From Saturnia japonica (taxonomy: Eukaryota > Arthropoda > Insecta > Lepidoptera > Saturniidae), in contig CM065329.1 in NCBI GenBank assembly GCA_033032175.1, positions 62,001 to 126,000 of the forward strand: DNA of 64,000 nucleotides, given 5' to 3'. Shown in pieces: positions 3,757 through 62,655 of this stretch. Both the position numbers and the translations under genes were made by a program. The notes under the pieces are model-generated. The model saw only the letters and a program-made list of their open reading frames with translations, was not told the DNA's origin and did no database searches. Positions within the stretch are counted from its first letter, which is position 1; every line of letters begins with the position of its first letter.

Positions 3757-4115
3757 GTGGTGGTAAATCTGTGTGGTGTCGTCGTCGTGTCGTAGTAGTA
3801 GTAGAGAGTGCGAGAAACAAAATTCAATTCAAACATCGGACGATGACGATAATAAAAACAAACGCGCTGGCGCGCGCGCGCACTTCAACCCAACCGACCT
3901 GTAGTAGTAGTCGTCGTCGTCGTCGTCGATGATGATGATGATGATGATGACAGCGGCGGCGGTGGTGGTCTTGGGGTGTGTGTCAGTGTCTGCTGTATTG
4001 TGTGGTGTGTATCGACCTATCGACTGACTCGACAGCGAGCACGAAATTGAAACAGCCCTTTTCAGGGCTAACAGATCATCATTATTTATATGGAACAACA
4101 ACAATAATAATAATA

Positions 4116-6570: not shown

Positions 6571-7279
6571 GCAAAATGATTCATTCACGTATACTTATTT
6601 AAAAAGTCGTTTCTAACATATATAAAGTGAAAACGCTATTATACTTCATAAAATTTATATCGAATGGTGACGAATGTTAGGTAGGTAGGTATAGGTGGTA
6701 CCTCTAAATCATTGAATGAGAACAATCGTACAGACAAACTAATATATACATATATAGATATAGATAGATAGTTATATAGACAAATAATAATAATAATATT
6801 TATTATTTATACTTACATTACAGAGAGATTAGACTGGAAGAGAGCATATAATATAATTAATTTGCTTGATATGTGTGTGTGTGTAGTATCGTCGTCGTCT
6901 TCATTAATGTAATAATTATTAGGTATAATAATTATCATCTATACTAGATAAGTTTTTTTTTTTTTTTTTTTTTCATACTTACATCGTTCCAGCGCCGCGC
7001 CGCGCCGCGCCGCGTCGTACATTCGATTAGCAGGTACGTACGGACGGGAGCTCGGAGCGTTGCCGGAGTGTACGATTGGTCGAAACGCGTTCGACACTGT
7101 CCCACTGCGATGTACCACTTGCGAGGCTGAAAATTTTAATAGATACGAGTTTACATAAAAAAAAGGGATATTTCTGTGAGATACTCTCGATCGTGACTCG
7201 CGTTTCGTTTCGTTCGTTCGTTCGTTCGTTCGGGAACACACATAATAATAGTAAATTAAATTAATTAAATAAAATAATA
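6571..7279 (+). other. H2A-H2B spacer and H2B promoter region
   Basis: No gene is seen. The first half is AT-rich with short repeats, and a T run lies at 6954-6973. A GC-rich patch (near 6990-7020) and (TTCG)n near 7205-7232 precede H2B. A weak TATA-like TTTTAATAG lies at 7134-7142. About 20-30 bp downstream of it (7155-7165) is the sequence that borders the 3' end of insertion A4 in unit 3. The TATA call is tentative. Confidence 0.6.
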
Positions 7280-7740: not shown

Positions 7741-8255
7741 ACAAAATTGCTCGTTTATAACACTATACTGTTTCTAAAGACAATTTCAAAATGTCAATCA
7801 ATCATCGATCGAATTATGTGTAATAACACATACCTATGTGTGTTATTATCATTATAATAGTTGGTTAAATTAATATATTTATATATGTAGTTATGTACTT
7901 ATTTCTACCTTTACTCTTAACTGTTAACTGTTATCCTTAGTTAGGCCCCCCCTCTGAAGCCTAAGACGCGCCGTGACTTGTATATTATATTATAATATAA
8001 TATATATGGTGCCAATAAATTATTATTATAATTGTCCCTTTTTTTTTTGTGGTAATTATTTATTTATTTATTTGTTTGTTTGTTTATTCATTAAATTATT
8101 ACACCGAAATAGGGGGAGGGGTATGGTATGCGGCTAAGGTGTTGGATTCTTTATAAAAATTTATAAATTAAACAGTAAGAGAAAGAAAGAAAGAGACACA
8201 ATACACGCGGAGCGAGAGAGCACTACGTACGATAGTCTGCGGGGCGGTTCGGCGC
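7741..8255 (+). other. H2B-H3 spacer, left part
   Basis: AT-rich spacer without a gene. It includes a T run near 8039 and (TTTA/TTTG)n near 8060-8090. It matches 26264-26741 of unit 3 closely, apart from small indels and a shortened AT tract. Confidence 0.8.
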
Positions 8256-8282
8256 GCGCGGACGTCCGCAAAGAAATCTTCT

Positions 8283-8408
8283 CACGCACAAGTAGTGTGC
8301 GTGGGGAAACCGCTTCAGGGCATAGCCCTCTGTTGGTGACAGTCTTCGACGCCCGCTACAACGGGCGTGTCTCTGTAATAAGGCCTCGCGTAACTGACGC
8401 TGAGGCCT
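8283..8408 (-). repeat. Chain of four hairpins in the C1 3' UTR
   Basis: Perfect or near-perfect stems are visible in series: 8283-8303 (8 bp, loop AGTAG), 8317-8329 (5 bp, loop ATA), 8349-8368 (7 bp) and 8381-8408 (7 bp plus 3 bp across one bulged base). They fill most of the 170 nt between the pol stop and the element end. As the element lacks polyA, they are candidates for the 3' structure recognised by its reverse transcriptase (inference). Confidence 0.85.
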
Positions 8409-8436
8409 GTGAATTCTCCTCTTTTCTCGCGCTTTC

Positions 8437-11134
8437 TCAGTCCGGCGTGGGTGCGCGGACGAGTTGGCGCGCATGAGGCTTCATGATCTTCCTCTTACAT
8501 CGAGGGTATTGCTGGTCTGGTGGTCTGGTGTGCAGCGGCGCTATATGCTGGAGGTGTACATGCGCCGATGCATCGGCTTTACGAAACATTCGGGTGGCTA
8601 GGCTGCTTATAAAATCGTCCAGGTTTTCTATGCACAGATCGCGTTGTATGGTTGAGTTCATCACGTAACGTGGTGCCCCGACGATCATTCTGAGCGTGTG
8701 ATTCTGTTGGGTTCGTAATCGGCGCTTCAAGTATTCTGCTGCGCAACCGAACCATGCAGGGGCGGCGTACGTGAGGCGCGATCTCACGTAGGTTTTATAT
8801 AAACCTAGCTTCGTGCGGAGCGGGAGTCTCGAAGTGAAAACCGGACACAGCACTCTCCTAGCGAAACCTGCTCTCGCAACTACACTCTCTACATGGGACT
8901 TAAAGGTGAGTCCCCGATCAATTTTGACCCCTAGGTAGGTGACCTCATTCCTCCATGGTAGGGCACTTCCCTGGAGTGTCAGCGGTGGTATGGTTGTCTT
9001 CGAATTTCTTAGTAGGAACGCCTGCGTCTTGCCAACATTCACGGTCAGCCGCCACTTTGCTAGCCATTCTGGCAAGGCGCTGAGCGACGGCTGTATCAAA
9101 AGTGCGGCTCGTTTCCTATTCATAGAGGTTGCCCAGTAGGCGGTGCCGTCCGCAAAGAGGGCAAGCTCTGCTTTACCGTCCACCGGCACATCGTTGGTGT
9201 AGAGAGCGTAGAGCAGCGGGGACAGACAACTTCCCTGCGGTACTCCTGCTGGCACCAGGATCTCTCTGGAGAGGTGGGTTTCAACAGAAACTCGTACCCG
9301 GCGGTCTTCTAAGAAGGATTGAACAATGTTAAATAGCTGCTTAGTTATCGTGGTGGCTGTCGATAACTTGTACAGGAGTCCTTCGTGCCACACCCTGTCG
9401 AACGCCTTCTCCATGTCCAAGAACACGGCGGCGACATGCTCTTTTCTATTGTGGGCCGTGACAAGGGTGTTGATTGTTCTTGCAAGCTGCAGTGTTGTCG
9501 AGTGTCCCTCTCTGAACCCGAATTGTTCCGGTCTGAGCGTCACATGTGCCTTCAGTGCGTAAAGAACCAGACGCTCGAAGACCTTCGACAATGTGTTTAG
9601 CAGGGTTATCGGGCGGTAACTGTCGGGTCGTCCTGGGTTCTTGCCGGGTTTGGGAATCATGGCCACGTGCCCAATTTTCCAGTCCTGTGGGAAGTGACCC
9701 GAGCGCAGTATACCATTGTAGAGTCGCGTGACCGCCGCGACAGTCTTAAGCGGCAGGTTGCGCAGCATGGTATTTGTGATACTATCCGCGCCCGGGGCTT
9801 TCTTGGGTTTCAACTTTGCAATTTCGCGCTGCACCATGCGCGGGCTTACAAAGAAGATGTCTTCACCGCTACTGGCTTGTGCTCTGTACTGTAACAGATG
9901 TCGCTCGACATCGCTAATGTGGTTAATATCTGTTGCCGGGTTTAAGACGCACTGCCTCTCTAGGTGCGCCGCAAAAATCTCCGCGCGATCCTCTGGGAGA
10001 AACCTCGGCAAATTATCGTCCCCTATAAGGGGATGGGCTTTCTTACTCGTGGCGGCTAGGGCTCGACACAAGCGGTGTATCGAGGGGATGTTGTCCCCTA
10101 TGCTCAATATGTGGTTATCCCACCGGTCGGCTGCATGGTCATCTAGCAAGACCTTAACGCGCGTTACTAACGAGTTGAGGCGAGTTTTCAATCTCGGGCA
10201 ACGGGTATTCTGCCATTCTCTTCTCAATGCTCTCTTTTCCCTAATAAGGTCTTCGATCCGTCGGGGCAGGGGCACGGATCTGCCTCCCTCCGGAGCGGTG
10301 TGGGATGTTCTTGCGAAAGCATCTTGAATTGTGGATGTAATATCTGCTGTCATTGCAATGACATCCTCTCGCGTGGACATTGGCAGCGAGTGGGTCGCGC
10401 TCCTGAGCACCTCCCTGTACTCGTCCCAGTCGACTATACGTCGTGGCGCGGGAAAGCCGATCCGCGCTGGGGAGCGGTGGAACTCCAGGAGAACGGGCCT
10501 GTGGTCAGACGGCAGGTCGGATAGGACTGTCTGTGACGGGGGTGTTGTTATACCCCTGGAGAACACAATGTCCAGGACATCTTGAGATACCCGGGTGTGG
10601 TGCGTGGGTTGGTCTGGTCCGGATATCACATAGTCCTTGTCAGTGGAGTGGGCGAATATTCGCCTCCCAAGTGGCGTCGTCCTGGATGCGTTCCACTGTG
10701 TGTTCTTCATATTGAAGTCGCCCGCTAGGACTGTTGGTGTGTCCTCGCGCAGTAACAAGTGCTCCAGGTCGCTCTCAAGCCTTCGATTGTCATGGTTGGG
10801 TGGTCTATATATTGTGTAGAGTTTAGTATTGATTCCCGCGATGCTCACCAGAACCCCCAGCGCATAGAGCGACTGGTACTCCACGCACGGGATGCCCTGG
10901 TGGACGATGCTCTTCCTCACGAATACGGCCAGCCCCCGGTAGGGGTCGCCCGCTTCAGTAACTTCGCACTTTGTGTAAGTGTGGTATCCCGGGATTTTGT
11001 AGTTGTCGTTAGTACGTAGCCAGGTCTCCGACACCAGCATAATGTCGACCTGTTGACTGCGCAGGAAGTGCGCTAGGAGTTTCTTCTTATTGTTTAGTGA
11101 CTGGGCGTTCCAATGTACCACTCTGAGAGGCGTA

Positions 11135-11142
<8 letters not shown>
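8437..11142 (-). CDS. Pol of C1: endonuclease plus reverse transcriptase, RT catalytic Asp changed to Gly
   Basis: A single 901-residue frame. Residues ~1-225 are an APE-type endonuclease with expected residues in place: WNAQSLN (metal-binding Asn), LVSETWL (Glu), LAGDFNMKNTQW, and SDHRPVLL (His). Residues ~440-720 are the reverse transcriptase, with KKAPGADSI, SYRPITLLNTLSKVFERLV, AVFLDMEKAFDRVWHEGL, PAGVPQGSCLSPLLY and the catalytic box. That box reads FADG (residues 663-666; codons at 9145-9156) where FADD is required, so RT activity is probably lost. Copy C2 has FADD at this place. ATG 11142 overlaps the gag stop as ATGGTTGA, a layout seen in all elements here. Confidence 0.93.
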
Positions 11143-13912
<2,770 letters not shown>

Positions 13913-14009: not shown

Positions 14010-14506
14010 GCATATAATTCAATGCATGTTATTTTTTGTTTGTAAATTGTTTCTATTCAAACTTGGATGTCATGCAACTACATATAAAATATCTCGTTGC
14101 TTGCGACACACACTCACACTTGAGAATCGATATGATATAATATAATATAATATTATGGTGATAATAAAACACTCTCGTACCACCCAATAGCTACACGCTA
14201 GGTTAGGTTAGGTTTGACTTGTGATAAATAACAGCGGGAGACGGCCGCGGGAGCGGCCGGCGACCGCCATGTCGTAACGCGCGTTCAATGCAATTTCACC
14301 ATTGATAGATTGATAGATAGATAGATAGATAAATAAATAAATAGTTAGAGTTTATCTTTTTCTTTTTCTTAGTCTCGTCAGTTGGTATTATTATTATTGT
14401 TATTAATGTTGTTGTTGCGGTGGTGCGCGTTACGGCAAGATTCCCCCCCCCCTACCGCCAGACCCCGTAAACATTGAGTGCTCTATCCCCTCCCTTCTCA
14501 AGTTAA
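14010..14506 (+). other. H3-H4 spacer
   Basis: No gene is seen. It contains three TTAGG-like units near 14200-14215, (GATA)n near 14305-14330, a short (ATT)n tract, and a C run near 14445. It is nearly identical to 23304-23815 in unit 3. Confidence 0.8.
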
Positions 14507-14539
14507 TATAAAGAGGAAAAACTCGTGGAATTTTTTAAA
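14507..14539 (+). promoter_or_regulatory. H4 core promoter of unit 2, interrupted at the start site
   Basis: TATAAAG at 14507-14513. The sequence TGGAATTTTTTAAA (14526-14539), 19 to 32 bp after the first T of the TATA box, should span the H4 transcription start. Element C2 is inserted immediately after it and the 14 bp are repeated at 19513-19526 beyond the element. Confidence 0.78.
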
Positions 14540-14631
14540 GGATCGCTCGGATCGGCACAGTGTACGGAGCTCTCTCGTGTTAAACGGTCGTGTTGCCGGG
14601 AAACCTTCCCCCTGAGCACCGACCTGCCTTG

Positions 14632-14770: not shown

Positions 14771-14812
14771 ACAGCTGCGTTCACCCACCGTCACGGCAAC
14801 ATGCTTGACGGA

Positions 14813-16700
14813 ATGGAAATCCAAGGCCCTTCTCAGGGCCAATCAAAAAACAAGACTACCGCAACGACCCCCCGCAACCCTCCGGACTCCGAATCAACAA
14901 CCATGACTACGCCCACCGGACACCGCAGCCGCACGTCCTCAAAAAGAGACTGCGCCACCGTCTGCCTCCGTGCAGGCCCTTCCTACACCCGGGTCATCAA
15001 CTGCGCCGCCATCCGGCACCGTAATGGCCCCTGCAGAGATCTACGAGCGCGATCTCAAAACGCTCGCCGAGCTCCTTGACGCCCAGGTACTTTCGGAGGG
15101 CATGCTCCGATGGATGGCGTTGTACCTACGCGTCAAGGAAGCCGAAATGGGAGGTTTAAAACCAAACTCCCACGACGTCGCCTCGCTGAAACACGCCGCC
15201 GGAGGCGTGCTAGCCCGCCCCCATCCCGAAGGTCATCCTAGAGATGAGCCTGAAAGGAGAGCCCAAAGAAGAAAACGCTCGGAATCAGACGAGCACGAGG
15301 ATAGCCACCAACCAGCAGCTCGAGTGAATATCACTCCCGAGCTGCTGGACCAGCTACAAGCGGATACCACAGATGACAACCTCCCACGGCCGCAGCGTCC
15401 GGCGAAGAGGACCAAGTTGCCAGTAGTGGCAAAAACTGTGCATACGGCCCCTCCCCCTCCCCCTCCAGCTCCTGCACCACCCAGGGGAGGCTACGCGACA
15501 GTGGTAGCATCAGCACCACCAGCAGCGCGCCCCGTTACCCGGCCATCCAAGGCCCCTAAGGAAGCACCCACTGTCGCAGCAACTGCCGTGCAGCAGCCTG
15601 CGCCGCCATCTGCAAGCCCACCAAGCATATCTGCGGTTCCAGCACCCAACCCGCCTGCTCCAGAAACGCAAGGCGAGGTACCCACCGTGGTAGTGGAGCG
15701 GCTACCAAATTGGACGCACCATTTCCGCGTCATCTCCGAACAGCTCGGCCATAGGCCGAACGCTCGTCCGTTTGGCGAAGGCGTCCGGTTCACGCCTGCC
15801 GACGACAATGAGTACCGTTTGATTCAACGGTACTTCACGGACCTAGAGAAACGGGAGGGAGTAGCCTGGTTCTCCTACTCCCTGCCTACGGAGAGAAGTT
15901 TGAAATTCGCCATTCGAGGCCTCCCGGAGAAACCAAAACGGAGGTAATCACCGAGGCCCTCACGGACTTAGGCTTTGAGCCTGAGTACGTGAAGCACATA
16001 AGGGGACGAAGTGGGAGACCAGGGTGCGTCTTTCACTGCATTCTCAAGAGGACGGCAGACCTCATTCCAAAATCTACCAAGTAGACGAAACTGCTCCGCA
16101 TGCCCGGGGTCAAGTTCGAGGCTTGGAGAGGGAAGCAGGGGCCGGCCCAATGCACCGGTGCCAGCAGTTCCGGCACTCCTCGCAGAACTGCCACCCGCCC
16201 TACCGCATGTGTGCGCTGCGGAGGGCCACATATGGCTTCCAGTGCACCGACCCAAGGAGGAACCGCCCACCTGCGCCAACTGCGGAGGCCCCCACCCGGC
16301 CAACAGCCACGTGCAGGGCCCGGTCTTCAAACGAGAGGCGCGCAACCGCCGTGCCGGCACCGTGGCGAGATCGGGCCCAACGGGCCGTGTAACAGGAGAC
16401 TTCCCACCCCCTCTCGCGACAGTCCAGGAAACCGCGCCAAGCAGCCTCATGGCTCCTGCCAATGACGCGAGCTCTCGCGTCACCTCTAATAGGAGACGCG
16501 GGAAAAAGGCGCGAGCAACCAAGCCCGCTACCAGCGAAGCAACCCAGCCTCCTACGCTGGCAGCGCATCCGACAACATTGGACACCCTGACGCACACCAC
16601 CAATGTCGTCAAAAGCATAATAGAGGTCGCCAGAAATGGCACCGAAGCCGAACAGGCGTGTATTAGATCTTTGCTCACCCTCTTCGCTCCCAATGCCTGA
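14813..16700 (+). pseudogene. Gag (ORF1) of C2, several frameshifts
   Basis: I place the start at ATG 14813 (MEIQGPSQGQSK); an in-frame ATG at 14801 is also possible. The frame shifts before about 14970. The next segment, to about 15930, holds an N-terminal helix (ERDLKTLAELLDAQVLSEGMLRWMALYLRVKEAEM), a Pro-rich linker and a PRE_C2HC-like region (VVVERLPNWTHHFRVISEQLG). It then shifts again. Zinc-knuckle remnants (CANCGGPHPAN and others) follow in mixed frames. The last part is open to TGA at 16698-16700. Equivalent segments in C1 support the assignment. It could not make full-length Gag as written. Confidence 0.85.
14825..14840 (+). promoter_or_regulatory. Histone stem-loop look-alike at the start of C2 ORF1
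   Basis: GGCCCT-TCTC-AGGGCC differs from the host histone element at one loop base only. It is preceded by CCAA and followed by AATCAAA. It lies 10 nt after the likely gag ATG and encodes GPSQG, the same place as in the divergent copy C1. Confidence 0.72.
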
Positions 16701-20897: not shown

Positions 20898-21032
20898 CGA
20901 CACACTGTCGCGATTAGAAACTTTATATTCATTTAACTAGTAGATTCATTTGCGGCCCTGAAAAGGGCCTTTTCGTATGTATGCTCCGTATAGGTTGATG
21001 ATGGGCAGGCGGCGTGTTCAATCAATATTATT
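20898..21032 (-). repeat. Inverted copy of the H4 3' region (135 bp)
   Basis: This is the reverse complement of 19949-20083 and includes an inverted histone stem-loop at 20954-20969. With its partner it makes a foldback with arms of 135 bp and about 815 bp between them. A 13-bp filler (21033-21045) that contains ATTGATTGA, also from the H4 3' region, leads into element A3. Confidence 0.95.
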
Positions 21033-26247: not shown

Positions 26248-26263
26248 GGCCCTTTTCAGGGCC
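26248..26263 (+). terminator. Histone mRNA 3' stem-loop, H2B-2
   Basis: GGCCCT-TTTC-AGGGCC, with the same flanks as H2B-1 and the downstream CTGTTTCTAAAGACA. Confidence 0.95.
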
Positions 26264-26766: not shown

Positions 26767-26795
26767 TATAAAAGGGCGGGTGAGTGTGCGCGGAG
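26767..26795 (+). promoter_or_regulatory. H3 core promoter of unit 3, joined to element A5
   Basis: TATAAAA at 26767-26773, then GCGCGGAG (26788-26795), then the first base of A5 at 26796. The distance from the first T of the TATA box to the element is 29 bp, which is where transcription should start. No H3 gene follows in this contig. Confidence 0.82.
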
Positions 26796-26872
26796 GGGGA
26801 TTCCGATTTCGACCGCTGAAGTGAACGGACGTGTCCGCTCGCGCTCTCGATCGCTTTCCGAATTATCGCATT

Positions 26873-27094
26873 CTGCTTGAATTAGTGTACAGTTGTTTGC
26901 TCTGATCCACGGACCCGGTCCTAGGCCTGCCGGTTCAGAGTACACATTGTATAGCTGGTTTTTTAAGCTATTTCATTCGCGCTCTGCTTGTACTAGTGTA
27001 CGACTTGTTTGTTTTGATCAACGGACCCGGTCCTAGGCCTGCCGGTTCAAAGCACACAGTTTTAAGCTAGTTATTAAGCTATACATACCGCGTG
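26873..27094 (+). repeat. Two tandem 111-bp repeats in the A5 5' UTR
   Basis: Units start at 26873 and 26984 (CTGCTTG...). Each contains AGTGTAC, CACGGACCCGGTCCTAGG or its AACGGACCC variant, CCTGCCGGTTC and a TTTTAAGCTA end. The second unit differs at scattered sites. They may be promoter or RNA-structure modules. Confidence 0.9.
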
Positions 27095-27125
27095 TTATAG
27101 CGAGGTCGGTGTTATTGTTGTGTAG

Positions 27126-27260
27126 CGAGTATCTAGGTACTCGTTGCGCGCATAGCGCCGTCTCGCTCGCACAATTCGTGTAGCACTTCGGTGCACACGA
27201 AAAAACCGTACTTTTCAGTACGATAATAAACGCGCTTTTCAGCGCGAAATCCTGTTTCAA
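27126..27260 (+). promoter_or_regulatory. 5' UTR hairpin series with two histone stem-loop look-alikes (A5)
   Basis: Four stems lie in series. The first is CGAGTA...TACTCG (27126-27143). The second is CGTGT-a-GCAC-TTCG-GTGC-ACACG (27177-27199). The third is CGTACT-TTTC-AGTACG (27207-27222). The fourth is CGCGCT-TTTC-AGCGCG (27231-27246). The last two have the 6-bp stem, TTTC loop and closing T-A pair of the host histone stem-loop. CTGTTTCAAAAGACA (27252-27266) follows, matching the region downstream of the H2B stem-loop at 14 of 15 bases. Confidence 0.75.
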
Positions 27261-27707
27261 AAGACACGCAAATCCACGGTTTAGTGGTCGTTCGTCGGAT
27301 ACCTAACGGTGCTAACGAAGACGAACGGGGCGTGACCCGAGCGCTCTCCGGTTACTTCCTTCTGAGGTAAACGATAACTCGGACGGGCCTGGGAATCTTA
27401 GCCTTTGCCTTTTTGCATAGTTAAGCCCCAGGTGTCTCCTACCCAACCCTTCCTATCCTTACCATCCATCCTTGTGGTTGTTTGGGCGGAGCCACGGTAT
27501 ATACCGGCCTGCGTCCTCTGCCACAAGACTGCTAGGGACTCCCCTAGGGAAACGATAGGTACTTTCCTGTGTTTCATTACACCGTGACACACAGGTCTCA
27601 TTGCTCCGGGCTCGGATAGCCCGTTAAATTCATTCGGCGTACCCCCCTGCCCTCCAGGCAGGGAGGTGAATAAATTCACTTCCCCCGTCCTCCAAACAGC
27701 CACCGCG

Positions 27708-29529
27708 ATGGCCGAATCAAAACTCGCGGAATTAGAAATACGTTTTAGGCAGCTGGAAGCCGAAAACCAGCGCCTAGTTAATTTTATGTCCCTCCACATG
27801 CCCGAGCTCAGCAATGAGTATAGAAGTCGGTCACAGATGGGTGACTCGCTACGTCCGCAGTCAGCCAACCAGAGCGCCGTTACCGCGCACGCCATCCCTC
27901 CACCTCCGCCGCGATCTCACCGCCGCCGCGCCACCCGGTTTCACGCGACCCGCCTCGGTCCCTGCGACCGAGTACCCCCACCCCACTAACCTCGCAAGCG
28001 CGAGCCACGCCCCCATTAAGTCCCGAGCAAAATCGCAACAGCGATCTTTTACCCCCGGTCCCTATGGCCGCCCCGCTAAACCCGTTGCCCCCGCGGCAAC
28101 CAAATCAACACCGGTGTACAACTCTTTTTCGGCCCTTCCAGCCGAAACAGATATGGACGCACCAGTGAGTCCAACCCCTTCCTCGGAAATGGAACTCTCG
28201 CTCCACTTCCAGGAACCAATCATAATCCCGACCGAACCTACCGCGGAAAATGACGAATTCACGGTCGTCAAATCCCGCAAACGCGCGCCCCGTGATAGCC
28301 CCGTTGAGGAAAACGCGGCTAAAACTTCAAAAACTGTTAACGGCTCTGCCGCCCCCGCACCCTCCTCGAATACCGACGAACCGGTCGTCGGTAAGAAGCA
28401 AAAACCCCCCCCGATAATTATCCACGACAAAACTGTCTGGACAAAGCTCACCAATGAGCTTAAAACGCTAAAGATAGGGTACACTAAAGCGCGTAATATC
28501 GCGACAGGCATCTCCCTGACGATGAGCACACCAAACTGCCATCGCAAGTTGACCACCCTCCTCCGTAGTAGGAACATTCCCTACTACACTTACGCCCTCG
28601 AAGAGGAGCGTGTCCTACGGGTTGTGCTTCGGCGCATCCCAGTCGAAATCTCACCAGAGGAAGTCCTTGCCTCCATTGAAGCCCAAAAATTCCCCATCCG
28701 AGAGGTCCATCGGATGTATAATAAAGAGAAACGAGCCCTTCCAATGCTCGTGTTAATCTTAGATAAAAACGCCTGAGGGCAAAAAAAATATTTAACTTAG
28801 AAATTGTATGCGAGCTCTCGGAATAACCGTAGAGCCTCCATACAAGAATTCGAAGCCCTCCCAATGCCACAACTGCCAGTTGTACGGACACTCTGCCCGC
28901 AACTGCTTCCTTCGTCCGAGGTGCGTTAAGTGCCTCGAAGACCACCCAACCAGGGAGTGCACGCGTCAGCGTGACTCTAACACCCCCCGAGCTGCGTACT
29001 ATGCAGGGAGGAGGGACATCCTGCGAACTATCGCGGATGCCCCAAGGCCCCGCACACCATGCACCCCCGCCGCCCTGGGCAGGCTGCCCCTCAGCGGGCA
29101 CCCCCCGCCTCAGGGTCCCGGGCGCAGCAACCTCTGCTCAATCCAGAGGTCTTTCCGTCCCTCCCTGCCCCCCGCCGCACTCAGGCGACCGTAGGCCCCC
29201 CCGCACCCCAGGTGCAGCCCAAACCCGTGCGTTCGACTCAGAACGCATGGGCCCCCAAACCGCAGCCCCTTATGGCTATGGACATCCCCGCGCCCCGCGC
29301 TCCAGCGCCCCGCGCCCCAGCACCACGCGCTCCAGCGTCCCGCGCCACCACAATGGACGACCTCATGCTATCGCTCCTTCGTGAGCATGAGATACGCGAG
29401 GTCCTCGCATACAAGGCCCATATGGAGCAGTACGGTTTCGTCGAAACCATAGCTGCCTTTCCCCGGCTCGTAGAGACGTTAATCCGTCTTGATCGCGAAG
29501 CCGCCAACCTCAGGTCTCTCAATGGCTAA
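27708..29529 (+). pseudogene. Gag (ORF1) of A5, frameshifted
   Basis: The start ATG is at 27708 (MAESKLAELEIRFRQLEAENQRL, a likely short coiled coil). A base is missing near 27899 (CCCC to CCC). The central region is open to about 28776 and includes the PRE_C2HC-type domain (RKLTTLLRSRNIPYYTYALEEERVLRVVLRRIPVEI). Here a run of eight C near 28407 keeps the frame through KKQKPPPIIIHDK. An extra A near 28765 and a missing C near 28985 break the rest. Zinc knuckles CHNCQLYGHSARNC and CVKCLEDHPTREC are visible. The C-terminal part is open to TAA 29527-29529. Confidence 0.9.
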
Positions 29530-32417
29530 ACAAAAGCCGAGAGGTTTAAACATCTCTTTCTTTAATGCGCGGAACTTATATCCGCAGCGTGATCTCGTCG
29601 CGACTTATCTTAAAGATCACCAAATAGACATTCTCTTAGTACAGGAAACGCTCTTAAAGCGTGGTAAACGCAATCCGAGTATCGCAAACTATAACATCGT
29701 TAGAAATGACCGCGACGGCCGAGGGGGCGGCACTCTCATTTATACAAGCGCTCGTTGTATTGCATGCCGATAGATCCTCCGATACTTACCAATATGGAAG
29801 TATCCGGTGTAGATAGGAATGACCGATCATCCGTCCATAACGATCGTATCCGTGTACCTCTCACCGACGAAAGTACTCTCAGGTCTGACCTACAGAAGCT
29901 ACTCTCGCTCGGCACATCGGTCATTATCGCAGGTGACCTCAACAGTGGACACACGTCCTTCAACAATTGGAGAGGACACCAGCAATGGGGTTATTCTCGA
30001 AGGGTTGTCGGACGAGTTAAACTTTGACGTCATAGCGCCTCCCACTCCCACCCACTTTCAAGATCACTGTACACCGACAGTGCTCGACATAGCCCTCCTA
30101 AAAAATATCGCGCTTCAGGTACGACTCATTCGGGTCATACACGAACTCGACTCCGACCATCGCCCGGTCATCCTACAGCTAGGACAACTAGATGACTCCA
30201 GCCCTCCTACAGTCACAATGGTTGACTATGCAAAATTAAAACACTACCTCGCGGATAGGCAGTCCTCGCCCAGTCTCGTTAGGGTCCCGGACGTGTTAGA
30301 GTCAGTTGCGCACGTAGATATCGCAATCGACTCCCTAGTTGACCACCTCCAAGTCGGCATCGGAGAGGCCTCGAGAGAGGTCGAAGCGGCGAACGATCGC
30401 CGCTTTGTACTCCCTGCCGACGTGCGAGCGTTGATGACGGAGAAGAACGCTGCGACTCGTGCGCATGACTCTTATCCGACCGATGCAAACCGCGCACGAT
30501 TACGCGCACTTCAGAGAGCGGTTAAAGCCCGTATAACCGAGCTCAAAAAGTCACAGATGGGGACACCCTAGTCGAAGGGCTAAGGCCGTCGCATCTGACT
30601 TATTGGAAAGTAGCCCACGCCCTTAAAATAGACGCCCAACCTCGCATGCCCCCCCTCGAAAGGGGTCCGGCACTACACCCGCTTTCGATATCATCGACAA
30701 GGCGGAGTGCCTTGCCGCCTGTCTGGAGAGCCAGTGCTCCCCGAACAGCGTCAAGAACACCGACCGAGTCAGAGACATCGAAGCCCGCGTGGAGGAGCTG
30801 AATAAGCTCCCGGTATCAGAATCCCTGTCCCCAGTCACTTCTGAGGAGATCTCTGCCATTCTCAAAAGCCTTAAGCTTAGAAAGTCACCAGGTCCCGACG
30901 GTATCAGGAACGAAGTACTCAAACTTCTTCCCGATCACCTCATAGCTCTATTGGTCTGCATATTCAATGTAGCCATAGCCAACTGCCATTTTCCAGCCGT
31001 CTGGAAAACGGCCATTGTCATAGGTATTCACAAGCCGGCAAGAGCACGTCGCTTCCCGACAGCTACCGCCCTATCAGTCTTCTAAATACCCTTGGAAAAA
31101 TCTATGAGCGGATCCTTCTGAACGTCTCAAATCCGTAATAGAGGAGAAAAACCTCTACCCGCCTGAGCAATTCGGTTTTCGTGCTAGACATTCTTGCACT
31201 CATCAAGTGCACCGCCTCACGGAGCACATTTTGTTTAACTTTTCCGAGTTATCTATACCCCGTCGCACACTGGCAGTCTTCTTCGACGTAGCCAAGGCCT
31301 TCGATAAGGTCTGGCACGAAGGATTAGTCTACAAGCTGTACTCCCGCGAAGTCCCGATAGATTAGTTAAAATCATCCGCGATTACCTCAAAGACCGCACC
31401 TTTCGCTACAGAGTGGAAGGTGAACTATCCACACCCCATCCCATACGCTCAGGCGTCCCCCAAGGTTCCATTCTGGCACCTAGCCTCTTCAATCTGTACG
31501 TCAGTGACCTACCAAAACTTGAAGAGAAAGTTGAAGTAGGCTTATACGCTGACGATACAGTCATATACTCCTCTCAAAGGCAAACGAGAAACCTCAAATG
31601 TAGAATCCAAAGAGCCGTGACCACTCTCGGGAAGTGGTTTAACGACTGGCGAATAGCCATAAACCCACGAAGAGCGCAGCGGTGCTCTTCGACAAAACCG
31701 CCACACAGATACCGCAAAAACTCAAGGACAATCCCTTGAACTCTTCGGTAATCCGATCCCCTGGGAAAAGGCGACCAAATATCTAGGTGTAACCCTAGAC
31801 AGTAGACTCTCCTTTATACGCCACATCAATCTGGTTAGGAAAAGGGCCTCCTGGACCCTCGCCCGACTGCATCCTCTGTTATGTGCTGCAAGCAAAATGT
31901 CCACGAGACACAAGCTTACGCTCTACAAGATGTGTATCCGTCCGATCATGACATATAGCTGCGTTGCGTTCGCACATATGCCAAGTTATAACTGGGAAAC
32001 GCTTACAAGCTATCCAGAACAAATTTCTTCACCGCCTTACCGGTGCCCCTGGTTTGTTCGTATGGAGGATCTCCATAGAGATATGGACCTTCCCTCGATA
32101 CATGCATATGCCAAACACCTTTCTCGCTCGTATTTCGACACCGCGTCGAACCACGCGAACCCCTTAATAAACGCGGCAGCTTCTTATGTTCCCGACCCCA
32201 ACGCCTGCCGGAGAAAACGCCGGCCGCGTAATATATTCACTGACCCGCCCGACCAAACCGAAAAAGCTAACGCGTTCTACGCCGACACCGTCTCTCCAAA
32301 CAGAGCGTGCCACCGCCCACGCCCGCGTAACCACCGTTCTCTCCGCAGAGGACGGGCGGTCAACTTCGCTCCCGCACACCCGTCACGTCCACCCTCTCTA
32401 GCGGCAACCAAGCCTAG
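29522..32417 (+). pseudogene. Pol of A5, multiple frameshifts
   Basis: The start ATG at 29522 overlaps the gag stop (ATGGCTAA). The endonuclease N-terminus (LNISFFNARNLYPQRD, ILLVQETLL) is in frame until a lost C near 29744. Further single-base changes occur, for example near 29810, 29878, 29972, 30550, 30665, 31033 and 31672. Otherwise the sequence is almost the same as A7 and A8 Pol, with SPGPDGIRNEVLK, SYRPISLLN (shifted), FDVAKAFDKVWHEG and YADDTVIYS recognisable. It ends at TAG 32415-32417. Whether these indels are real or sequencing errors cannot be told here. Confidence 0.9.
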
Positions 32418-32955
32418 GTCCGTTCCTCGGTGTGAAGCCCTTGGGTCAGGCAGCCGCCCGCGCGATACAAAGTGACACTATACGTGCAACACTTAGTTAC
32501 CCACACACAACATTCCACACGTATGAACACACACACGTGCACACCACACAGGTACATAGGTTCTGTAAGGGACCTTTTTTTTTCTTTTTTTGCGCTAGTT
32601 AGACTATTGCGCTAGTTAGTGTAGAAAAACCATTCCGATTATTAAATACACATACGCACGGTTCCTTCCTTCCTCCCAGGAGGAGGGGAACGTGCATATG
32701 AGTATATATTAGTTAGCTCGAATTCTCCTAAGATTAGGGAATTAGTTAGATCGCGACTTTTTCGCATTCGCGACGACCGCCCGAGCCGAGGTTCGGCCAC
32801 TCTGGCACCCTCGTGCGGGTCGTCACAAACTTTCGCGGCTGAGTGCCCTAAGCGCTCGCCCCCAAGTCCGGTGAAGCTGTAAAAGCCGCAGCGGCTCTGT
32901 TTGACGATAGGGCCCCTAAGGCTAACAGTGTAGTCAGTTCTAAAAAAAAAAAAAA

Positions 32956-33129: not shown

Positions 33130-33145
33130 CGCACTTTTCGGTGCG
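33130..33145 (+). promoter_or_regulatory. Histone stem-loop look-alike in the HJ-B 5' UTR
   Basis: CGCACT-TTTC-GGTGCG. Five Watson-Crick pairs and one T-G wobble close a TTTC loop. It sits in the same relative place as the HJ-A hairpins, upstream of the shared AATCCACGG block, with AAAC before it. Confidence 0.62.
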
Positions 33146-33582
33146 ACTTGCTTGTTTTTTTTTTTTTTTGTTTGTAAATCCACGGTTTTGTGGTCACTTG
33201 CTGGATACCTGACGGTGCCAACGAAGGCAAGTGGGGCGTGACCCGAGCAGCCCGCTGGTTGTCTCCTTCAGAGGCAAACAGCAAGACTCGGACGGGCCTG
33301 GGAATCTAGGCCTTTGCGGTTATCGCATAGTCTTGCCCCAGGTGTCTCCTGCCAAACCCTCCGATCCTGCACACTCCATCCCCGGGAACCTGTTTGGGCC
33401 TAGCCCGGTTTAATTACCGGTCTGCGTCCTCAGTCCCGGGCTTGCTAGGGTTCCTTAGGGCCGATAGGTTCTTCCTGTGTGTCATTGCACCTCGACCACA
33501 GGACTTTTGCCCGACTCGGATAGTCGTTATAAATTTTGGCGCACCCCCTGCCCCTAAGGCAGGGAGGCCGTAAATTTAAATC

Positions 33583-62615: not shown

Positions 62616-62655
62616 CGTACTTTTCAGTACGATAATAAACGCGCTTTTCAGCGCG
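62616..62655 (+). promoter_or_regulatory. Two histone stem-loop look-alikes in the A9 5' UTR
   Basis: CGTACT-TTTC-AGTACG (62616-62631) and CGCGCT-TTTC-AGCGCG (62640-62655), unchanged although the nearby 111-bp repeats have diverged. Confidence 0.75.

Follow-up and report, generated by a model that had tools for sequence, protein, structure and literature searches.

Histone mRNAs carry a 3′ stem-loop (Histone3, Rfam RF00032) that is bound by SLBP. At its smallest, a site for SLBP consists of the loop, a pair of adenines on its 5′ side, and a single adenine on its 3′ side, with G7, the G of stem pair 2, as a key contact (PMC10388802); a second source names loop positions U1 and U3 (PMC6510757). 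A review gives histone mRNAs as the only known target of SLBP (PMC9709290), and a coronavirus RNA was later reported as SLBP-linked (PMC12166091). The viruses that this last source presents as SLBP-dependent (SARS-CoV-2 frameshift RNA, and HIV-1 as cited there) offer a likeness, in that a foreign RNA is linked to host SLBP; its available text describes no copy of the histone stem-loop in them, unlike the loops considered here. We analyzed 64,000 nucleotides (nt) of the Saturnia japonica genome (contig CM065329.1, positions 62,001 to 126,000; hereafter the window), which hold histone genes together with the long interspersed nuclear elements (LINEs) HJ-A, HJ-C, and HJ-D and the sister element of HJ-A, HJ-B. 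On balance, we favor the view that hairpins in these elements are histone-type stem-loops serving as candidate binding sites for host SLBP, which would tie LINE RNA to S phase.

The closest described relatives of the HJ elements are the Jockey-type retrotransposons of Lepidoptera, which lack long terminal repeats. Full-length named relatives of the HJ-A open reading frame 2 (ORF2) protein, at 47–51% identity, are lepidopteran (Choristoneura, Dendrolimus, Euphydryas, Mythimna, Bicyclus), with one labeled Acinetobacter; the name jockey is attached in the source records to two further lepidopteran relatives, which are partial or shorter. The HJ elements differ by their histone-type loops at the start of ORF1 or in the 5′ untranslated region (UTR). 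A title and abstract search of the open-licence PMC literature returned no report of histone-type stem-loops in transposable elements or of LINEs targeted to histone genes.

Loops at ORF1 starts were assessed by eye, with Rfam Histone3, and with a covariance model, R1, built on 34 histone-type stem-loops with HJ-A and HJ-B excluded; R1 scanned the window with filtering disabled, and its E-values are rough. Within the window, the ORF1-start loops and their surroundings are as follows (positions are those of the window).

13180..13195, minus strand: histone stem-loop of HJ-C, GGCCCTTCTAAGGGCC, in frame and 24 nt downstream of the ATG at 13219; 34.8 bits with Rfam Histone3 (cut-off 34)
8267..13370, minus strand: HJ-C, a LINE whose ORF2 has APE and RT domains, inside a histone promoter; its limits and its target duplication of 12 bp were identified by eye
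14825..14840, plus strand: histone stem-loop of HJ-D, GGCCCTTCTCAGGGCC, 24 nt after the ATG at 14801; 33.7 bits with R1, which includes this family, and 22.6 bits, below the cut-off, with Rfam

These loops are like the histone mRNA stem-loop in their 6-bp stem (GGCYCT/AGRGCC), their 4-nt loop with U1 and U3, and their flanking adenines. HJ-C ORF2 is 44% identical to a Heliothis virescens protein and 31% identical to HJ-A ORF2; given the latter value, HJ-C and HJ-A represent two distantly related lineages within a single LINE type and are not unrelated elements. Across the genome, the strict consensus GGCYCTTYTNAGRGCC occurs at 294 perfect places, host histone genes included, versus 1 for the reversed pattern. 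Of the 294, 100 were listed; 60 fetched stretches, which take in 64 of these 100, were classed by eye on sequence as LINE ORF1 starts (44), transposase-like 3′ ends (11), HJ-like LINE 3′ ends (3), a histone gene (1), and another repeat (1). With Rfam Histone3, 33 of 79 genomic matches lay above the gathering cut-off (75 of 114,826 candidates scored), and the 30 of these that were fetched comprise 14 histone genes, nine LINE ORF1 starts (the HJ-C loop of the window among them), and seven matches in a transposase-like gene, assigned by eye and position. The 44 consensus stretches and nine longer Rfam-found loci make up a LINE ORF1 set of 53 loci in 21 sequence clusters, a class in which ORF2 was read for HJ-C alone.

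The position of the loop at these ORF1 starts is consistent, mostly 24–63 nt downstream of an ATG. An in-frame ATG lies 12–69 nt upstream in 47 of the 53 loci, at exactly 33 nt in 27, and the frame is open from that ATG through the loop in 42. Many loci have a second hairpin: with at least five of six pairs required, 21 cases fall at ±30 nt from the first, versus a mean of 0.67 at other offsets between 16 and 75 nt. Offsets of −33 (12 cases) and −23 (10) are also raised, and less so −55 (7) and −25 (6), which we guess to be a separate stem around the ATG. The initial annotation held that equal numbers of such hairpins in unrelated LINEs would speak against a histone-like role in HJ-A. Hairpins are indeed present in other LINEs, yet they are better histone stem-loops than those of HJ-A and are seemingly constrained as RNA, so the idea is widened rather than overturned. 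Elsewhere, one interval (G000:C1:9053631-9076175) holds seven ORF1-start loops on one strand, spaced by about 2–8 kb; the stretch read there (L141) is a rearranged piece. The three HJ-like LINE 3′ ends (L105, L117, L136) carry a histone-type loop, GGCTCTTTTTAG(A/G)GCC, some 20–30 nt before an A-rich run.

The pattern of conservation suggests that the ORF1-start loops are under RNA-level selection with the known specificity of SLBP, since U1, U3, and the adjoining adenines are retained in loops whose positions 2 and 4 differ, with an altered amino acid as the result. The 21 second hairpins, found by their ±30 position and stem alone, have U1 in 21 cases and U3 in 20, and show all four bases at loop positions 2 and 4. 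Sixteen of them fail the search pattern themselves, and these retain U1 in 16/16 and U3 in 15/16. In the codon frame of the ORF1 loops, U3 is a third codon base, and changes at positions 2 and 4 alter the amino acid. When the loop was left free genome-wide, 247 places were found versus seven for the reversed control, and the first 50 of the 247 read TNTN on one strand in 49 cases, where about 1 in 8 is expected. Flanking adenines recur across the 53 LINE loci at −2 (52 loci), −1 (45), and +1 (45). For the stem, an alignment of 34 rows has six cells changed on both sides; this count and the covariation score exceed those of 500/500 shuffles.

HJ-A carries its hairpins in the 5′ UTR rather than at the ORF1 start, and HJ-B has one at the matching place.

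26798..32955, plus strand: HJ-A copy A5, with its 5′ end ~31 nt downstream of the TATA box of a histone gene (26767-26773)
27207..27222, plus strand: A5 hairpin 1, CGTACT-TTTC-AGTACG (CGTACTTTTCAGTACG), not listed by R1
27231..27246, plus strand: A5 hairpin 2, CGCGCT-TTTC-AGCGCG (CGCGCTTTTCAGCGCG), flanked by AAA on either side; 19.2 bits with R1, E 1.3e-4
27252..27266, plus strand: 15-mer CTGTTTCAAAAGACA, 3′ of the A5 hairpins; 14/15 identity to the stretch after a core-histone stem-loop
56391..56430, plus strand: the same hairpin pair in HJ-A copy A8 (starts 56391 and 56415)
62616..62655, plus strand: the same pair in HJ-A copy A9, an element cut by the window end (starts 62616 and 62640)
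33130..33145, plus strand: the single hairpin of HJ-B, CGCACT-TTTC-GGTGCG, in the matching 5′ UTR place, with five Watson-Crick pairs and a closing U.G

The 8-nt spacing of the A5 hairpins and their identity in A8 and A9, as first described, were borne out. So was the 14-of-15 match of the downstream 15-mer to the stretch after a core-histone stem-loop (H2B in the initial annotation), where the histone counterpart CTGTTTCTAAAGACA stands at 7768 and 26291; the 15-mer is not present in several diverged HJ-A copies. The octamer CTTTTCAG occurs 16 times in the window on both strands, and 15 of these are perfect 6-bp hairpins (nine of histone type and six of HJ-A). Dinucleotide shuffles of the 912-nt stretch 26797-27708 were checked for a pair of 6-bp/4-nt hairpins within 60 nt that share the 8-nt core but not the arms; such a pair arose in 0/20,000, in a test designed after the pair had been seen. 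The HJ-A 5′ UTR has three perfect hairpins versus a shuffle mean of 0.22 (P 0.0017), and a chance origin of the pair is unlikely. The predicted RNA fold forms both hairpins (z = −6.8 for 27100-27300). This same interval is highly structured, with a long stem, a UUCG-loop hairpin, and the two TTTC hairpins in series.

Kinship with the histone stem-loop is best argued for hairpin 2. In the window, R1 first returns 11 histone-type loops at 28.8–39.2 bits (several belong to the model's own rows) and next ranks hairpin 2 in all three HJ-A copies with the score given above; the best chance match thereafter has an E-value of 0.66. Hairpin 2, read as AAA-CGCGCT-TTTC-AGCGCG-AAA, has the pair-2 G-C, U1, U3, two 5′ adenines, and one 3′ adenine. 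These features, together with its recognition by R1, from which HJ-A and HJ-B were excluded, support the relationship and make hairpin 2 a probable SLBP-type site. Hairpin 1 and the HJ-B hairpin have pair 2, U1, U3, and the 3′ adenine, with C instead of A at base −1 (AAAC). The initial annotation had stated both that all four outer pairs vary and that the second pair is G-C throughout. These statements contradict each other: pair 2 is G-C in both HJ-A hairpins, and relative to the histone stem, hairpin 1 differs at pairs 1, 3, and 4 and hairpin 2 at pairs 1 and 4.

The hairpins of HJ-A and HJ-B are maintained in dispersed copies. Hairpin 1 of HJ-A occurs at 192 places (106+86) over the 580-Mb assembly and its reversed control at none. 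CTTTTCAG occurs twice within 8–32 nt at 207 places versus 11 for the control, with the HJ-A spacer in most places listed. All 30 fetched HJ-A copies have a second core downstream, and the second hairpin is perfect in 23, has one G.U in three, and a mismatch in four. HJ-B is about 76% identical to HJ-A over 33176-33567, and its 16-mer hairpin is identical in 19 of 20 dispersed copies, chosen among 40 scored matches of 977 candidates; the remaining copy has the loop TCTC. Viral contigs searched with HJ-A ORF2 gave two pattern stretches and no relative, and the loop pattern alone gave at least 120 stretches there, which we assumed to be chance and terminator hairpins.

Many LINE-like elements carry one or two loops just past the ORF1 start codon, with looser versions in the HJ-A and HJ-B 5′ UTRs. 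In the mechanism we propose, SLBP, mainly an S-phase protein, would recognize the element RNA at these loops, close to the start, and once bound may favor the stability, export, or translation of that RNA when replication eases insertion. SLBP binding, the coupling to S phase, and a shared role for the HJ-A pair are what we infer from sequence; hairpin 2 is likely to do the same job as the ORF1-start loops, and hairpin 1 may do so. A bolder form of the proposal, which we hold tentatively and at not quite even weight, is that a guild of distant mobile elements in one lepidopteran genome has copied the histone stem-loop code, with SLBP gating their RNA to S phase by acting at translation initiation and not at the 3′ end. 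Its members would include at least two distant jockey-type LINE lineages, the ORF1 class among them comprising 21 sequence clusters, and one transposase-like gene. The placement of SLBP action at initiation follows from the LINE site lying within codons of the ORF1 start, and we know of no report of SLBP acting in this way.

Several results weigh against the SLBP proposal. Known histone stem-loops work at the 3′ terminus of RNAs that have no poly(A) tail, and genomic HJ copies end in poly(A). The stems of HJ-A and HJ-B do not follow the Histone3 consensus, and these hairpins are not filed as members of RF00032: the suggested check with the Rfam histone model left them unlisted at E ≤ 1 and so below the gathering cut-off. 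The R1 window scan lists neither hairpin 1 of HJ-A nor the HJ-B hairpin at E ≤ 10. On 10 of the 30 HJ-A loci, R1 found hairpin 2 at E < 0.01 in six, with diverged copies weak or missing. Covariation in the ORF1-start stems is modest: the number of pairs changed was reached by 20/500 shuffles and the pair types by 350/500, the signal rests mainly on one pair (C-G/U-A, 5/34 rows), and element copies share ancestry, so the counts are not independent events. Four ORF1 homologues from elsewhere all lack a KGP-type N-terminus. A search for the SLBP domain gave no match in the genome, a weak negative given that 14 prokaryote controls also gave none and that an exon split by introns would escape.

For HJ-A alone, it is plausible, although we rate it the less probable reading, that the 5′ UTR hairpins are of an ordinary sort in which one tetraloop recurs, have no connection with SLBP, and are recognized either by a protein of the element itself or not at all. 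The further hairpins in a row in this 5′ UTR fit such a view, as does the omission of hairpin 1 and the HJ-B hairpin by R1. It sits poorly with the recognition of hairpin 2 by a model built without it, with a CT-TTTC-AG core that appears twice with different arms (0/20,000 shuffles), and with HJ-B, in which the arms differ but the loop and the G-C at pair 2 are retained. A general translation hairpin is an unlikely account of the ORF1-start loops. In alphavirus subgenomic RNA, a hairpin downstream of the AUG makes the initiating ribosome pause, and a stem 24–33 nt past the AUG could in the same way raise initiation without SLBP. The spacing in the LINE loci suits this idea, with the ATG at exactly 33 nt in 27/53 and within 12–69 nt in 47/53, but it does not account for U1 and U3 being fixed while positions 2 and 4 are free, for the flanking adenines, for the transposase-like loop past the stop codon, or for the 5′ UTR position in HJ.

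Cleavage at the loop by the U7 pathway, in the manner of histone pre-mRNA, is a still more doubtful alternative, and it brings in the host histone genes and the transposase-like gene.

26248..26263, plus strand: host core-histone stem-loop, GGCCCTTTTCAGGGCC; others at 1492, 4054, 6555, 7725, 13994, 20012, and 23288, and at 20954 on the minus strand

At four of five distinct host histone ends (1508-1600, 6571-6660, 7741-7830, and 14010-14100), GTTTCTA(A/T) lies 29–39 nt after the stem-loop, on which basis we regard it as a candidate U7-pairing element of the host; it is absent from the H1 gene at 4054. The repeated transposase-like gene provides the best case for such processing. Its histone stem-loop stands ~35 nt after the stop codon (as read in a single copy, L048, which has a frame break further upstream), and GTTTCT follows 16–19 nt downstream of the loop in 13 of 18 loci (L045, L048, L052, L053, L057-L059, L094, L095, L098, L101, L106, L109, L118, L124, L132, L134, L137), as though the transcript had a histone-type 3′ end. 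U7-pathway cleavage is possible for this gene. We take it to be an IS630/Tc1-like transposase from a YLDETWVN stretch alone, and Pfam returned nothing over the curated cut-off for the fragment. For the ORF1 class, cleavage by this pathway is unlikely: GTTTCT within 60 nt downstream of the loop is found in 0/53 LINE loci, and cutting there would sever the LINE mRNA, so 3′-end cleavage of the LINEs is disfavored. In HJ-A, GTTTC(A/T/C)AA does lie 31 nt after hairpin 1, but it is missing in several diverged copies, which leaves the earlier suggestion of 3′-end-type cleavage poorly supported. No U7 gene was recognized in the genome, where the best Rfam match scored 27.4 bits, below the cut-off, and the sought Sm-type motifs were present in 0/20 excised loci; this search is too weak to argue for absence.

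Selection on the protein, by which ORF1 would need an N-terminal K-G-P-x-x-G peptide and the hairpin would be a by-product, is very improbable and is disfavored for these loops: the frame is open from the ATG in 42/53 loci and the loops mostly encode GP[SFYC][QKE]G, but the fixed positions are third codon bases while the amino-acid-changing loop positions vary (in a comparison whose choice of hairpins bore in part on stem positions and not on loop positions), GGCTCT..AGAGCC loci alter codons and keep pairing, and the same loop also occurs outside open reading frames.

The elements also share a relation to promoters, to which one further feature belongs.

14507..14540, plus strand: histone-gene TATA box (14507-14513) and the 5′ end of HJ-D at ~14540, 33 nt after it

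HJ-A copy A5 and HJ-D thus begin 31 and 33 nt downstream of the TATA boxes of two histone genes, as if these LINEs inserted at RNA polymerase II start sites. HJ-A 5′ ends often stand some 30–40 nt past a TATA-like box: among the 28 of 30 HJ-A copies (L001-L030) with a usable 5′ end, 10 have such a motif in the 60 nt upstream (at −42 to −27 in eight), versus 4/28 in a control interval 200–260 nt upstream, and seven more of the 28 lie at one repeated promoter-like sequence. A 5′-truncated HJ-A (23848) occupies the insertion place of HJ-D (14540) in the same histone promoter of a different repeat unit. The initial description of HJ-A as living at histone genes holds in part. The histone cluster is favored, but with hairpin 1 at 192 genomic places and the 30 fetched copies spread over seven contigs, HJ-A is not restricted to histone genes. 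For HJ-B, 18 matches to one block at 100% identity (the window's included) contain eight within 25 kb of a Histone3 match and two more within about 62 kb. The histone cluster, though favored, is probably one instance of insertion where transcription begins.

If SLBP-type sites are numerous in mobile elements, the protein would gain a second large class of clients, and LINE activity would gain a direct handle on S phase. The location at the ORF1 start makes the RNA separable from the protein, as silent changes can break the former while the latter stays intact. Should the proposal be true, it would also offer a possible reason why these elements crowd at histone genes.
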